NCBI GenBank assembly: GCA_016937175.1
Contig: JAFGWL010000026.1
Coordinates: 1-60,246 of the forward strand
Source: Candidatus Mcinerneyibacteriota bacterium
GTDB taxonomy: Bacteria; Macinerneyibacteriota; Macinerneyibacteria; Macinerneyibacteriales; DSCS01
Direction: 5' to 3'
DNA length: 60,246 bases
In this document: positions 38,018 to 44,498 of the stretch, piece after piece
Layout of the letters: each line of letters opens with the position of its first letter
How positions within the stretch are numbered: position 1 is the stretch's first letter
Made by a program: the position numbers and the translations under genes
The notes under the pieces: generated by a model
What the model was told of the DNA's origin: nothing
Databases searched by the model: none
Seen by the model: the letters and a program-made list of their open reading frames with translations, nothing else

Positions 38018-40486
38018 TCAGTGGGCTTCCTCCCAATCCTTACCCGAAGAGATCTCCACCTTCATGGGGACAGAGAGCCTGAACGGAGAGGATTCCATGA
38101 TCTCTTTGATCAAGGGGATCATTCTCTCTAAAGCCTTCTCTTTCACTTCAAAGAGCAGTTCATCATGGATCTGAAGAAGTAGGCGCACCCGGTCATCACG
38201 GATCCACCTGTCATGGACACGGATCATCACCTCCTTGATGATATCGGCAGCACTTCCCTGAATGGGCGTATTCACGGCGATACGTTCAGCTGCTTCCCGC
38301 ATCATGCGGTTTTTCCCCTGGAGGCCGGGCACACGTCTCCTCCGTCCCGAAAGGACTTCGACCCAGCCGTTCTGTCTGGCTCCCTCAACGGTCCTGTCAA
38401 TAAATGCTCTGACTCCGGAGAAACGTTCAAAATAGCGCCCGATGAGCTCTTCAGCCTCCCCGAGGGGAATACCAAGCTGAGAGGCAAGGCTGAAGGCTGA
38501 CTGGCCGTAGATAATGCCGAAGTTCACAGCTTTGGCCCGGTGACGCATCTCGGGATCGGCTGTTCCGAAGAGACGCCGTGCCGTCTCACTGTGAATATCG
38601 CCCCCTTCTCTGAAAATGGAAATGAGGTTCTCATCCCCGGAGTAGTGGGCCATGATACGGAGCTCCATCTGGGAATAGTCCGCAGAGACCAGCTGATATC
38701 CGGAATCGGCGATAAAAAGCTGTCTCATACGCTTGCCCCATTCCCCGTAGATGGGAATATTCTGAAGGTTGGGATTTTTCGAAGAGAGCCGTCCTGTGGC
38801 TGTCCCGCAATAGTCCAATGTGGAATGAAGACGCCCTTTCCCATCCACCGCTTCCAGGTAGGGAAGGATATAGGTAGAAAGGATCTTTTGGATCTTCCGG
38901 TATTCCAGGAGCATCTCCCCCACAGGGTGGACAGAGGCGACTTTCTGGAGGACTGACTCGTCTGTGGCATAGCCCGTTTTTGTCTTTTTCAGGCGCCCCG
39001 GTATTTTAAGAGCCATCTTTTCAAAAAGGACTTCTCCCAGCTGTTTAGGCGACCTGATATTGAACTCTTCACCGCATTCGCGGTAGATCTCCTTCTCTTT
39101 AGCAGCCGTTGCCTCTTCCAGCTCCTTTCTATAGGCCTCCAGAAGATCCAGGTCGATTCTGACACCGTGTTCTTCCATGGAGCTGATGACAGCGGGAAGC
39201 CGTAGTTCGTTTTTCTCCAGATAACTCCAGACCCCTCTCTCTTCAAGCAGGGACCGGGCCCGGGTGAAGTAATCACGCAGCTCTCTGACATTCCTGATGG
39301 AGCGCTTGGCATAAAAATCATCAGCTGTTGAGAATGTCTCAGAATCATGGGCCCAATAGTCCACAAGACGGAGGTCTCTGATTTCGCAGGCCGTCTCATG
39401 TTCTTTGAGAAATGAGTGGGCATCATAGACCCAGAGAAGAAGCCCGGGCCGGTTCAAAAAACAGGGATCACCGGTGACCCGGTAGCAGGACTCTCCCTCC
39501 GGAGTTGTCAGATGGTAGCCATCCTCCTGCTCCATCAGAAGATATTCTCCCGACTCCGCGTCAAAGGGACCCTCTTCGTAGACAGCTTCCCGGAGGGGGG
39601 CCGGGGCGGAGACAGGCTTTTCCCCGATGTATTTCATCAGGGAAAGAAATCTCTGCTGGTTAAAATAGTCTCTGACAACTTCCGGGTCGTAAGCCGGAAA
39701 CCGCGCCTCTTCAAAATCAAGCTCCACAGGGATATGCCGGTTGATCACCACAAGCTTTTTTGATAAAAGGAGCATCTCCTCCTGTTCGGTGACCTGTTCT
39801 CTGGCCCTGGGATTGGCGATATCGCCTGACTTTCTGATAATGGTCTCGACATCACCCAAAGCCCTGATAAGATTTTTGGCCCCCTTGGGCCCGATCCCTT
39901 TTACGCCGGGGATATTGTCGGCGCTGTCTCCCATGAGAGCCAGATAGTCCGTAAAGTGGCGCAGGGGAAACCCAAACTCCTCTTCAAACACCTTTTTGTC
40001 ATAACGTTTGTCTTCCCGCGGCCCGCTTCTCACCACAGTGACGTGGGTGTCAATGAGCTGGAGAAGGTCTTTATCCGGGGTATAGACTACGACTTCACAT
40101 CCGCCCTGTGCTTTCACCTTTTCAGCAATGGTTCCGATGATATCATCCGCTTCATGGCCGGGGATCTCCATACGTTTGATCCGGGCCAGGTCAAGAAAAG
40201 ATTTGATATTTTTGATCTGAAGGCTCAGTTCGTCAGGCATAGGCTTGCGGTTGGCTTTATAATCTGCGAAGAGTTCATGGTTGTCCGTCTTCCCCCTGGA
40301 ATCGAAGACTACATAGAGAAAATCGGGACGATGCGTTTCAAGAAGGCCGAAAAGTTTACGCAGAAAGCCGTACAGGGCCCCCACGGGTTCACCCCGTGGA
40401 TTGGTCAGGTTCTGGCGCTGAAAAGCATAAAAGGCCTGATAGGCCAGAGCATTTCCATCGATCAGAAAAAAACATTCCTGCTTCAT
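38018..40486 (-). CDS. polA: DNA polymerase I with 5' nuclease and degenerate 3'-5' exonuclease domain
   Basis: 822 residues, about 100 shorter than the E. coli enzyme. The 5' nuclease (1-290; 'LIDGNALAYQAFYAF', 'HEADDIIG', 'GDSADNIPGVKGIGPKGA') is intact. The middle (about 295-415) has no DxE exo I motif and only weak echoes of exo II/III ('WVYDAHSFL', 'VDYWAHDSET'), so proofreading is probably lost. The polymerase (420-822) has motif A 'DYSQMELR' (Asp603), motif B 'RAKAVNFGIIYG' (Arg650, Lys652... Tyr660) and motif C 'IHDEL' (Asp775). It serves Okazaki fragment maturation and repair. Its start overlaps the repeat protein's stop by 4 bases. Confidence 0.95.
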   Translation of the reverse strand: MKQECFFLIDGNALAYQAFYAFQRQNLTNPRGEPVGALYGFLRKLFGLLETHRPDFLYVVFDSRGKTDNHELFADYKANRKPMPDELSLQIKNIKSFLDLARIKRMEIPGHEADDIIGTIAEKVKAQGGCEVVVYTPDKDLLQLIDTHVTVVRSGPREDKRYDKKVFEEEFGFPLRHFTDYLALMGDSADNIPGVKGIGPKGAKNLIRALGDVETIIRKSGDIANPRAREQVTEQEEMLLLSKKLVVINRHIPVELDFEEARFPAYDPEVVRDYFNQQRFLSLMKYIGEKPVSAPAPLREAVYEEGPFDAESGEYLLMEQEDGYHLTTPEGESCYRVTGDPCFLNRPGLLLWVYDAHSFLKEHETACEIRDLRLVDYWAHDSETFSTADDFYAKRSIRNVRELRDYFTRARSLLEERGVWSYLEKNELRLPAVISSMEEHGVRIDLDLLEAYRKELEEATAAKEKEIYRECGEEFNIRSPKQLGEVLFEKMALKIPGRLKKTKTGYATDESVLQKVASVHPVGEMLLEYRKIQKILSTYILPYLEAVDGKGRLHSTLDYCGTATGRLSSKNPNLQNIPIYGEWGKRMRQLFIADSGYQLVSADYSQMELRIMAHYSGDENLISIFREGGDIHSETARRLFGTADPEMRHRAKAVNFGIIYGQSAFSLASQLGIPLGEAEELIGRYFERFSGVRAFIDRTVEGARQNGWVEVLSGRRRRVPGLQGKNRMMREAAERIAVNTPIQGSAADIIKEVMIRVHDRWIRDDRVRLLLQIHDELLFEVKEKALERMIPLIKEIMESSPFRLSVPMKVEISSGKDWEEAH

Positions 40487-41043
40487 CGGGGATCCTCCCT
40501 GAGGGCCTCTTCCACAGCCCTTTTCCAGCTCCCGTAGCGCCGGTAAGCTCGGGTATAGAGAGTCGGGTCGTCTTTGTAGACTGCTCTCCGAAGAGGGTTT
40601 TCAAGATAATGCCGGACAGCATCCAGAAGCTTCTCGTCGTTTAACCGGCTGACGGCCTCCCCGCATCCCGCTGCCCGCAGAGCCCCTTTCCAGGAGCCGA
40701 ACAACCTCCGGGCCGCTGCATAGAAACGGGGATCCTCTTTGTAGACAAGACTCAGCTCTCCGGGGCTTTTGGACTGAAGGGCCTCAATGATCCCTTCGGA
40801 AGTCCACGTTTCACTCCGTTTTCGCCCTTTCCGCCCGTTTCGGTACTCTTCGTCCGGGTTCAGGCCGCACTGTTCCAGAGCGTTTTTCCAGTGCCCGAAG
40901 TGCTTTTTTCTGACGGCGGCATTGAAAAGCCTGGGGTTGACCCTGCGGACCGCCGCCGGGGCAAGAGAGGCTCCGTTATCTTTCAAAATCCTGATCTCTT
41001 CACAGATCTTGTCTCTATCCCAGCGGATATTTCTTTTCAGCAC
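40483..41043 (-). CDS. Protein of three homeodomain-like (HNH-associated-type) repeats
   Basis: 186 residues in which one motif recurs three times: 'FNAAVRKKHFGHWKNALEQCGL' (ending near 61), 'FYAAARRLFGSWKGALRAAGC' (near 126) and 'LYTRAYRRYGSWKRAVEEAL' (near 182). Each is preceded by a helix starting with Trp or Leu plus charged residues. The 'lfGSWk.AL..AG' signature is that of the homing-endonuclease-associated homeodomain-like repeat, but no nuclease domain is attached here. It is strongly basic and probably binds DNA. The start is a GTG with an AAGGTAAG site. Its stop overlaps the polA start, so its amount would follow polA. Confidence 0.78.
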   Translation of the reverse strand: MLKRNIRWDRDKICEEIRILKDNGASLAPAAVRRVNPRLFNAAVRKKHFGHWKNALEQCGLNPDEEYRNGRKGRKRSETWTSEGIIEALQSKSPGELSLVYKEDPRFYAAARRLFGSWKGALRAAGCGEAVSRLNDEKLLDAVRHYLENPLRRAVYKDDPTLYTRAYRRYGSWKRAVEEALREDPR

Positions 41044-41048
41044 AAATC

Positions 41049-41531
41049 TTACCTTTTATAACCGATTTTTCGCAAAAAAGCATGCCTTATCTCGATATCC
41101 TTATCAGTTTCCCTCCCGGCGGGCTTTTTCCCGTCGATCACGCCGATGATCCCCCGCCCTTCACCGTGCTCAGCTACAAGGACAGTCAGAGGGTTGGCTG
41201 TGGCGGCAAAGATCGAACAGACTTCAGGGACTTGTTTGACAGCGGTAAGGCAGTTGATGGGAAAAGCTTCTTTGATGATGATAAGAAAGGCGTGGCCTGC
41301 CCCGATCCGTTCCAGGTTTTCCGCCGCCTTTCGGCGCAAACCGGGATCATTCCCGTCATGGCGGACCAGACAGGGCCCGCTGGCCTCGTTGAAGGCCAGT
41401 CCGAAGCGGATCCCCGGAGCAGACTGGACAAGGGCTTCATAAAGGTCTTCTACTGTCTTGATAAAATGCGCCTGCCCCAGGATAATATTCTCATCTTCTT
41501 CTTTTTGAAGCTCCACTTTTCTTATTTCCAT
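41049..41531 (-). CDS. Adenosine-specific kinase family protein
   Basis: 160 residues from the ATG at 41531 (GGGAGAGGGT site). The sequence follows the PF04008 family closely: 'ILGQAHFIKTVEDLYEALVQSAPGI', 'GLAFNEASGPCLVRHDGND', 'IGAGHAFLIIIKEAFPINCLTAVK' and 'VCSIFAATANPLTVLVAE'. The family was named from a crystal structure with bound adenosine/phosphate; its physiological role is not well established. A purine connection fits the xpt operon elsewhere in the window. It is the first gene of a seven-gene operon. Confidence 0.9.
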   Translation of the reverse strand: MEIRKVELQKEEDENIILGQAHFIKTVEDLYEALVQSAPGIRFGLAFNEASGPCLVRHDGNDPGLRRKAAENLERIGAGHAFLIIIKEAFPINCLTAVKQVPEVCSIFAATANPLTVLVAEHGEGRGIIGVIDGKKPAGRETDKDIEIRHAFLRKIGYKR

Positions 41532-41561
41532 ACCCTCTCCCTTTTTTTGAAACTTTAACCC

Positions 41562-41589
41562 ATTATAGAGCAATTTAGTCAAAGGTCAA
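41562..41589 (-). promoter_or_regulatory. Promoter of the adenosine kinase-polA-NatAB operon
   Basis: Minus-strand TTGACC (41584-41589), 16-base spacer, perfect TATAAT (41562-41567), 30 bases before the ATG at 41531. Confidence 0.75.
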
Positions 41590-41612: not shown

Positions 41613-41640
41613 TTGACAAAAACCCCCTTGCTCTTAAAAT
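41613..41640 (+). promoter_or_regulatory. Promoter of the STAS/AAA+ gene
   Basis: TTGACA (41613-41618), 16-base spacer, TAAAAT (41635-41640), about 20 bases before the ATG; an AAGGGAGG ribosome site lies between. Divergent from the polA operon promoter. Confidence 0.75.
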
Positions 41641-41660: not shown

Positions 41661-43967
41661 ATGCAAAAACTATTTGAAATCAATGGAATCGGGATACATC
41701 TTACAGCCCAATCTTCTGATTCTCTGGGCCGGACCGGTTTCCTCACCATAGAAGGTTCCGTTTCCCCGAACAATATCCAAAGTTTTGAAGCAGCCCTGAA
41801 AAAGATCAAGACCTTCAATATCTCCATAACAGTCATCGATTTCAGCAAAGTATCCTCCTTCTGCGAAGAAGCATGGGCTCTGATCAGACAGCACAAGGAA
41901 AACCTTGCGCGCCCCGAAGAGGACATCCTCCTTCTCAGGATGCCTCCTACTCTCTTTGAACAGTTCCACGCCCAGGGGTACGACGATCTACTCAGGCATT
42001 TCCGTGCTTTCGGAGACCTGGACCGCTTTATGGTCTCCCGAGGGAGAAAAGGCGAAGAAGCTTCCTCTGAAGAGCAAGCCGGCCTTTCCAGGGAAGAAGA
42101 GCCTGCCCCTGATGAGAAAGAACAGCCGGAGGCAGAGACTCCGACCCCTTTCTCCCATGAAGAGACAGAAGAGGTCATCTCCGAAGAGCCTTACGGAGAG
42201 GCTGAAGAGGAGCTCATCGATGAACCCTCTTCCACTGTCCTGCAGGAGCGCTTTCCCCTGAACGAGAGCCGTGAAGTCTTCGAAGAGACGGAGATACCGG
42301 AACTCCCCGAAGAGGATATCGAAGAGGCCCTCCCTTCCCGTACTTTTGAGACAGAAACCATCCCCGAAAAGATGATCGCCATCCGCGGAAAACTGCGTTC
42401 TTTATTTGAAAACAAGATCTACGAGTGGAAAAGCCTGGGTTATGACACTTCTTATCTGGACGGCTATCTGGATAAAAACCTGGACGAAGCGAAAAAAGCC
42501 TTTGCTCTCTACTCGAAAAATCTAGCCGATTGCCGCGAAATGGAAGCGGCCGCTGACATGATCGAAAACCCTGCTTTAAAAAAGAGCCTTCTTCTAACAA
42601 AATCCCTTTTGAAAAAACCCATGGAGATAGACAAGGCCCGGGAATCCTTTTCTGGGCTCCTCAAAGAAGCCGAGCAACTGGACCATGATGCTTTCCTGCC
42701 CCTGGCCGATTATCAGTTCGATAATTTCATCAAAGGAAACAACAAGGATACCGTCGAGATGGTCCGCCATCTTGTCCACCACCTGGATTCCTACGACAGG
42801 CCTCTTCTCATCCATGGTTCCAACGGAACGGGAAAGACTCATATTCTTAATGCCATAGGAAATACCATCCGCCTTCAGACTTCACGCTCTGTCAACTATA
42901 TCCCGGCCAACAGTTTTATCGTGGAACTGGAAAACATGCGGGAGCAGGGACGTCTTCACCTCTTCAGAAAACGCTACATGTCCTGCGAGGTCCTTCTTTT
43001 CGATGATGTTCATCTCCTTGAGGATGCCTCTCCGGCAGCCCATGAGTTTCGTTTTCTCATGGATTCCCTGGCCCGGCAGTCCAAACTGCTCATCATGGCA
43101 TCGGTCCTTAAGGCTGATGACTTCAGGTTCGTGAGCAAAGACCTTCAGTCCCGCCTCAAAAGCGCTATCCACCTGACCATGGCACCTCCCGACGAGCTGA
43201 CTCTTACGCAGATCCTGGAAAAGCGTATGTCGGAGCTCAAGATCGACTCTGAAAAAGGAGTCCCCCGCTATCTGGCCCAGATGGCACCCGGAGATATCAG
43301 AAAGGCTTTCGGACTTCTCGAGACGCTTCATCTCTATGCCAAGACTTACCATGAAAGCATCAGCTATGAGCTGGTACGCGAGTTGACCTCCTCTTCCCTC
43401 TCCTATGAAGAGATCCGCCAGATGACGCCCCCCTCTCCCCCCCAGGAGACTATCCTGCCGGAACATGAAGGATCTTTCACTAAAGAGGAGGAGACGAACA
43501 TAGAAGAAGAAGGGCCTTTTGCCGAGGAGTTCGATGAAGAGGCTTCCTACCCCTCAGAGACCCAGGACGGGAAAGAACCTCTCGCCGAAGGGATCGAACA
43601 CAGGCCTGAAGACGACATCCCTGAGTTCCTTCCTGAAGAGGGTGAAGGAGTAAAGCCTGTTCAGGCAGAAGATGAAGAACCCTCAGATCTTCTCCCCGGC
43701 GAGGAGCGCCTCTCAGGGACAGAGCCTGAAACTATCCCGGATGTTGAAGAAGAACCTGTGAGCGGAGAAGAAATCCAGCTCTCCAGCGAGGAAGAAGAGA
43801 CGCCTCTGGCCAACGAAGAGGCCTCTTTCGAAGATGACGAGTCAGACCCCTTCGCCGGGCTGGACGACCAGGAAGAGGAAGAGCAGATGAGCGATGTCAC
43901 GGATGATTCGGACCTGGACCTCTGGGATGAAGTAGACGAAAACGAAGACGACCCCTTCGCTCTGTAA
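41661..43967 (+). CDS. STAS domain fused to DnaA-type AAA+ ATPase with acidic linkers
   Basis: 768 residues with an unusual order. Residues 1-125 form a STAS-like domain ('GFLTIEGSV', 'VIDFSKVSSFCEEAWALI'). 130-230 is a very acidic linker. 235-345 is helical ('LRSLFENKIYEWKSLGYD'). 346-575 is a DnaA-type AAA+ core: Walker A 'GSNGTGKTH' (Lys392), Walker B 'LLFDDVHLL' (Asp448-Asp449), arginine-finger region 'LQSRLKSAIH' (Arg498) and sensor 2 'GDIRKAFGLL' (Arg547). 596-768 is an extremely Glu/Asp-rich tail. The DnaA DNA-binding domain IV is absent, so it is not the initiator. It could be a replication- or cell-polarity-linked switch in which a STAS partner and ATP control assembly. It has its own promoter. 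Confidence 0.85.
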   Translation: MQKLFEINGIGIHLTAQSSDSLGRTGFLTIEGSVSPNNIQSFEAALKKIKTFNISITVIDFSKVSSFCEEAWALIRQHKENLARPEEDILLLRMPPTLFEQFHAQGYDDLLRHFRAFGDLDRFMVSRGRKGEEASSEEQAGLSREEEPAPDEKEQPEAETPTPFSHEETEEVISEEPYGEAEEELIDEPSSTVLQERFPLNESREVFEETEIPELPEEDIEEALPSRTFETETIPEKMIAIRGKLRSLFENKIYEWKSLGYDTSYLDGYLDKNLDEAKKAFALYSKNLADCREMEAAADMIENPALKKSLLLTKSLLKKPMEIDKARESFSGLLKEAEQLDHDAFLPLADYQFDNFIKGNNKDTVEMVRHLVHHLDSYDRPLLIHGSNGTGKTHILNAIGNTIRLQTSRSVNYIPANSFIVELENMREQGRLHLFRKRYMSCEVLLFDDVHLLEDASPAAHEFRFLMDSLARQSKLLIMASVLKADDFRFVSKDLQSRLKSAIHLTMAPPDELTLTQILEKRMSELKIDSEKGVPRYLAQMAPGDIRKAFGLLETLHLYAKTYHESISYELVRELTSSSLSYEEIRQMTPPSPPQETILPEHEGSFTKEEETNIEEEGPFAEEFDEEASYPSETQDGKEPLAEGIEHRPEDDIPEFLPEEGEGVKPVQAEDEEPSDLLPGEERLSGTEPETIPDVEEEPVSGEEIQLSSEEEETPLANEEASFEDDESDPFAGLDDQEEEEQMSDVTDDSDLDLWDEVDENEDDPFAL

Positions 43968-43982
43968 AAAGAAAGGAAGACT

Positions 43983-44498
43983 ATGGTTACTCAACGGCAG
44001 AAAATCCGGCGTTTTACATCCCTCGGGATCTTTACCAGCCTTGTCATCATCATGACACTTTTTGCACGCATCCCAATGCCGCAGATCAAGGGATATATCA
44101 ACCTCGGGGATTCCATGATCCTTTTGGGAACACTCTTTTTCGGGGGAGTCTTCGGAGCGGTCATAGGCTCTTTCGGATCAGCTTTAGCTGACGTGATCGG
44201 CGGATATCCCAACTTCGCCATCTTTACCTTTATCATCAAGGGGATCGAGCCCCTTATCTTTGCACTGCTGATCCGTGCGGGACAGAAGAGAGATTATTCC
44301 ATCCCCCGCCTCCTTTACGGAGCCACTTTCGCCATGCTCTGGATGGTAGCCGGTTATTTCTGGGTGGAATACTTTATGTTCGGGGCCCCGGCTGCTTTCG
44401 CTGAAGTCCCCGGCAATATCATCCAGGCAGCGGGATCCATCTTTATCAGTGTCGGCCTCTATAATATTGTGCGCAACACCGTAAAGGCTTCAGCTTAA
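43983..44498 (+). CDS. ECF transporter S component
   Basis: 171 residues with about six hydrophobic segments. 'TSLGIFTSLVIIMTLFARIPMPQIKGYINLGDSMILLGTLFFGG' followed by 'GSFGSALADVIGG' is the pattern of vitamin-specific S components. 'KGIEPLIFALLI' is the usual later motif. Such proteins bind a vitamin or precursor in the membrane and use a shared EcfAAT module, which is not in the window. The ligand cannot be told. It lies 15 bases after the STAS/AAA+ gene and its stop codon overlaps the clpC stop. Confidence 0.85.
   Translation: MVTQRQKIRRFTSLGIFTSLVIIMTLFARIPMPQIKGYINLGDSMILLGTLFFGGVFGAVIGSFGSALADVIGGYPNFAIFTFIIKGIEPLIFALLIRAGQKRDYSIPRLLYGATFAMLWMVAGYFWVEYFMFGAPAAFAEVPGNIIQAAGSIFISVGLYNIVRNTVKASA

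Follow-up and report, generated by a model that had tools for sequence, protein, structure and literature searches.

DnaA-type AAA+ modules are viewed as replication machines; the examples are DnaA and Hda, to which the DnaC/DnaI loaders are close. Hda, a clamp-binding protein that stimulates hydrolysis of DnaA-bound ATP, offers a precedent for such a module lacking domain IV. STAS domains serve as docking domains in SulP or MlaB, and the same fold is found in the anti-sigma-factor antagonists SpoIIAA, RsbV and RsfB. PATAN (DUF4388) proteins have already been reported near MglA/MglB (PMC4316618), in a paper whose main text, by term search, does not mention DnaA.

Here we analyze a 60,246-nucleotide stretch of a Candidatus Mcinerneyibacteriota contig (JAFGWL010000026.1; hereafter the window), in which a single gene joins a STAS domain to a DnaA-type AAA+ ATPase. 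Homology between a helical segment of this protein and proteins encoded beside mglA and DUF4388 genes suggests a rare and rebuilt relative of widespread and unstudied mglA-linked DnaA-like ATPases, in which the DnaA engine has been reused for cell signalling. We found no paper on an mglA-linked DnaA-like protein in a literature with few subscription journals. Literature pairing a STAS domain with DnaA likewise gave nothing related, in agreement with an earlier note, made from the sequence, that knew of no characterised protein with this domain order.

Gene and domain architecture

The window gene (Table 1) starts with ATG behind a GGGAGG Shine-Dalgarno sequence, and its sigma-70-like promoter comes from a consensus scan that returned 2 sites in the region against 1.4 expected by chance. 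A sister genome of the same genus (G001) encodes a 781-residue orthologue with identical domain order, and polA, an HNH-repeat gene, an adenosine-specific kinase gene, the ECF gene and clpC are neighbors common to both loci, which excludes an assembly or frame artefact. Spacers diverge between the two proteins while the domains and the C-terminal tip are kept. The linker is 36% Asp plus Glu over residues 127-225; the tail, described earlier as 170 residues of Glu/Asp, is indeed acidic but measures 179 residues in whole, at 39% Asp plus Glu.

Table 1. Features of the window gene and its downstream neighbor, in window coordinates; identities are to the G001 orthologue.
Feature	Residues	Coordinates	Strand	Identity	Basis or remark
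Sigma-70-like promoter, TTGACA-16-TAAAAT, 11/12 consensus		41613..41640	+		Consensus scan
Whole gene, 768 aa plus stop	1-768	41661..43967	+	66%	ORF; orthologue in G001
STAS domain, Glu69 at phosphoacceptor position	1-126	41661..42038	+	66%	Pfam, AF2 + Foldseek, hhalign
Acidic linker	127-232	42039..42356	+	43%	
Conserved four-helix segment	233-345	42357..42695	+	85%	Profiles, hhalign, AF2
DnaA domain III AAA+ module	346-589	42696..43427	+	84%	Pfam/NCBIfam, AF2 + Foldseek
Walker A, GSNGTGKT	386-393	42816..42839	+		
Acidic tail, poorly conserved	590-742	43428..43886	+	32%	
Conserved C-terminal tip (last 26)	743-768	43887..43964	+	81%	
ECF-type transporter S component gene, 15 nt past the window gene's stop		43983..44498	+		Adjacency kept in G001

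In both genomes the gene sits between polA/adenosine kinase and the ECF transporter/clpC, and it is probably co-transcribed with the downstream S component gene. No kinase, phosphatase or sigma gene lies beside it. The upstream gene, on the opposite strand, encodes an adenosine-specific kinase family protein (41049-41582; PF04008, E 4.9e-70), and between it and polA lies a gene for a protein with three HNH_repeat (PF18780) units (40483-41043), kept in G001, in which no nuclease domain was found.

The STAS-helical-AAA+ order was seen only in these two species of one genus, where the GTDB phylum of the window genome counts three species in the set examined; a spirochaete origin of the window finds no support. 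Scanning contigs with two peptide patterns drawn from the alignment of window protein and orthologue recovered only G001 and a single weak match of DnaA type, and tblastn searches of plasmids and phages gave matches to the DnaA AAA+ part only.

A DnaA-type AAA+ module without domain IV

The sole confident Pfam match in the window protein is Bac_DnaA, at residues 350-502 (E 1.5e-23). The NCBIfam DnaA profile TIGR00362 aligns to residues 349-589 and ends at profile position 347 of 437, the start of domain IV; the DNA-binding helix-turn-helix of that domain is absent, with no Pfam match beyond residue 579. An AF2 model of residues 226-600, built from 26 sequences, reached a mean pLDDT of 88.7, and Foldseek placed domain III of the B. 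subtilis and T. maritima DnaA proteins as the nearest solved folds (TMt 0.85-0.89), followed by Hda. Together, domain searches and structure prediction bear out the proposal that a STAS domain is joined to a DnaA-type AAA+ ATPase lacking domain IV. As in DnaA domain III, the AAA+ fold has a pair of helices separating Walker A from Walker B, and it keeps both Walker motifs, an Arg finger and sensor 2. Unlike DnaA, the protein has a STAS N-terminus, an acidic linker and tail, and no detected domain IV, and it scores 150 bits with TIGR00362 against a cut-off of 343.9. Hda/HdaA shares the DnaA-type AAA+ module without domain IV, but the window protein is about three times longer, with STAS domain, helical segment and acidic tail in addition, and falls far under the Hda cut-off (TIGR03420, 84 bits versus 195).

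The AAA+ motifs had been called complete, which holds only in part. Walker A Lys392, Walker B Asp448/Asp449, Arg498 and sensor 2 Arg547 are kept, whereas the sensor-1 Asp is replaced by Val482 and the box-VII Arg by Asp494. Both replacements occur in window protein and orthologue alike, while the two residues are present in 8/8 canonical DnaAs aligned. From the alignment and our own numbering, we take the E. coli counterparts to be Arg285 (Arg498), Arg334 (Arg547), Asp269 (Val482) and Arg281 (Asp494). Roles have been described for E. coli Asp269 in sensor 1 and Arg281 in box VII, the latter being used in DnaA-DnaA contacts (PMC5742627). With both residues replaced, tight ATP binding of the DnaA kind is not to be assumed, and loss of the sensor-1 Asp suggests a nucleotide affinity weaker than that of DnaA.

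In the window genome (1.88 Mb, 71 contigs), sampled through searches and the reading of stretches, a true 444-aa dnaA lies on another contig (C10) and a DnaC-like gene on C2; the sample contained no further Hda-like gene. A hand alignment suggests that the conserved Arg of the E. coli B-motif (Arg245) has no counterpart in this true DnaA (L001, G000:C10). Loss of this ssDNA-binding Arg was therefore dropped as a sign of a non-DNA role.

The STAS domain

Searched at full length, the window protein gave no Pfam STAS match. Residues 1-126 alone matched STAS as the sole family (E 0.0097; 0.051 for the orthologue), with a score of 16.1 bits that lies under the cut-off of 22.6. An AF2 model of these residues from two sequences is of medium confidence (pLDDT 68.5), and its top Foldseek matches in the PDB are the anti-sigma-factor antagonists RsfB (E 1e-5), SpoIIAA and TM1442, with STAS domains of SulP and of the MlaFEDB complex also among the matches. 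With a canonical STAS protein of the window genome, hhalign gives an ungapped alignment of 91 residues (E 1.1e-5). We accept the STAS fold of the N-terminus on the strength of these matches.

Control by phosphorylation, also proposed earlier, fares less well. In the ungapped alignment with the genome's own STAS protein, the position of SpoIIAA Ser58 is occupied by Glu69 (Asp in the orthologue) and that of Asp57 by Cys68. Thus the domain resembles SpoIIAA, RsbV and RsfB in fold but, unlike them, lacks the phosphoacceptor Ser and is fused to an AAA+ protein, and the Glu/Asp at the Ser position makes phospho-switching of the SpoIIAA type unlikely.

The helical segment and its relatives

The segment between linker and AAA+ module is conserved between window protein and orthologue about as well as the AAA+ core itself, and AF2 predicts helices with per-block pLDDT mostly of 84-98. 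In a domain-wide search, a profile of the two proteins retrieved ordinary DnaAs and G107 proteins matched from the helical segment on, and also reached G243. The homology is reciprocal: the window helical profile finds the G243/G107b proteins at iE 8e-4, a helical profile built without the window sequences finds the window protein at iE 6.5e-8 and its orthologue at 7e-9, and hhalign between the profiles gives E 1.6e-9. In at least three other phyla the segment adjoins a DnaA-type AAA+ module, in the order AAA-helical-AAA in G107 (two copies), G243 and G063, and in the order AAA-helical, with one AAA+ domain, in G131 and G268. It is present in 10/10 genomes of the G131 phylum and 104/200 of the G063 phylum. 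Across a domain-wide sample, 8/290 genomes carry it beside a DnaA-type module or, in G204, beside mglA on the same contig. Two further weak matches to the helical model were set aside, as G211 probably encodes a TPR-like protein and the G009 match looks SMC/RecN-like.

Phylogeny of the AAA+ domains places the window pair on a very long branch (about 4.5), not joined to the tandem proteins. A clade of the window AAA+ with the second domains of the tandem proteins (p-AU 0.058) is neither rejected nor shown, and grouping it with canonical DnaA is mildly rejected (p-AU 0.025).

The single-AAA+ members in G131 and G268 (L075:9333-10712 and L074:9893-11305) lack much of the second Walker A-B helix, the initiator-specific motif, as would suit a protein that acts without single-stranded DNA.

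Association with mglA and DUF4388

We read closely 30 loci of relatives (20 and 10 from two phyla, around the best matches). A DUF4388 gene lies downstream of the DnaA-like gene in 30/30, and mglA lies upstream in 26/30, two of the other four seeming to be cut by a contig end. The wider clusters include cheA, cheB, cheC, cheD, cheR, roadblock and TPR genes. The genomic setting of the relatives resembles that of described MglA-MglB polarity modules with PATAN (DUF4388). Most of the 30 relatives end in a C-terminal WDWP..DRLIEE-type motif; the window tip is only loosely alike, having one Trp and acidic residues in common with it and no clear alignment. MglA was found in 8/8 sampled carriers of the family versus 110/290 genomes overall, a co-occurrence that is suggestive, with p only ~0.02 when counted by phylum.

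The window gene itself is not flanked by mglA or DUF4388. That the mglA flank belongs to the relatives and not to the window gene counts against placing its product in this pathway. On another contig (C29), the window genome does encode MglA, roadblock and DUF4388 proteins together, the MglA sharing 57% identity with its G268 counterpart, and it has two further DUF4388 proteins. A genome of the same order (G002) has mglA-roadblock-DUF4388 as well, and no homologue of the window protein was detected there, likewise a point against, though that genome is 88% complete. Separately, genes for PilB/GspE (with MshEN) and PilC/GspF in the window genome are immediately preceded by one for a 209-residue STAS protein (L123:5300-8899, G000:C6).

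Compared with the mglA-linked DnaA-like proteins, then, the window protein shares a homologous four-helix segment on a DnaA-type AAA+ module and a genome with MglA, roadblock and DUF4388 proteins. It differs in that a STAS domain replaces the first AAA+ domain, in its long acidic linker and tail, and in a gene that lies outside an mgl cluster.

Functional assignment

Homology of the helical segment to proteins flanked by mglA and DUF4388 is the basis for assigning the window protein to the mgl-linked family. We judge the chances to be about even that it is a non-replicative DnaA-type ATPase and a divergent member of the four-helix-segment family, and give similar weight to its working in the MglA/DUF4388 polarity pathway, probably as a scaffold or effector. 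A broader proposal, that a whole class of DnaA-derived ATPases acts off DNA in Ras-like MglA polarity systems, as assembly factors or effectors, with the window protein as its branch in which STAS took the place of one ATPase module, is somewhat more tentative. In such a scheme the AAA+ module would bind ATP and assemble head to tail through Arg498. The STAS domain, in the place of the tandem relatives' first AAA+ domain, would be a constitutive docking domain and not a phospho-switch. Helical segment and acidic C-terminal tip could then touch partners in surface signalling or polarity that works through MglA/MglB/DUF4388 (PATAN), a pathway that may govern type IV pilus-like machinery.

The main rival is a regulator of replication initiation, Hda-like or dominant-negative, that inserts into DnaA filaments via domain III under STAS control. 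Such a role would suit a module whose sequence and fold come closest to those of DnaA domain III and Hda, with Walker A/B, Arg finger and sensor 2 kept, in a genome whose sampled part shows no other Hda-like gene. Yet the relatives with the helical segment have mglA, DUF4388 and che genes around them, grouping with canonical DnaA is mildly rejected, and an Asp takes the place of the box-VII Arg of DnaA-DnaA contacts (Arg281; PMC5742627), so we consider this role unlikely. The related suggestion in the earlier note, that the protein rivals DnaA, may hold but is not favored, since the helical-segment relatives adjoin mglA and DUF4388.

That note also raised an anti-anti-sigma-like switch, in which the STAS domain would capture a kinase of the RsbW/SpoIIAB type and the AAA+ oligomer would cluster it. 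Antagonists of anti-sigma factors are the top fold matches, and the genome has a SpoIIAB/RsbW-like ATPase beside a canonical STAS gene; this switch is nonetheless improbable given the Glu (Asp in the orthologue) at the phosphoacceptor position and the lack of adjacent kinase, phosphatase and sigma genes. Less probable again is a regulator of the downstream ECF transporter, or of another membrane complex, that docks through STAS. The close spacing conserved in G001 and the SulP and MlaFEDB matches speak for such docking, but the adjacency comes from two genomes of one genus only and the mglA-linked relatives of the helical segment are left unexplained. We know of no ECF module that uses such a protein.

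If the assignment to an MglA-linked, non-replicative family is correct, the filament engine of DnaA has been reused for spatial signalling. A DnaA family tied to MglA operons in several phyla would mean that this engine also works in cell polarity or surface signalling. The broader family seems to be undescribed, and is a more important result than the STAS-DnaA form itself; its helical segment, C-terminal motif and conserved operon offer handles for testing. Annotation calls for care, as tandem members may be misnamed 'replication initiator DnaA': those of G107, G243 and G063 (L041, L043 and L076) score 515-633 bits with TIGR00362, over the whole-protein cut-off of 343.9.

Proteins of up to 1999 residues that combine an MshEN-like domain, long helical repeats and a DnaA-type AAA+ module (L046:4925-10921, L047:5416-9339, L045:4128-6572) look like a further case in which the DnaA module serves something other than initiation.
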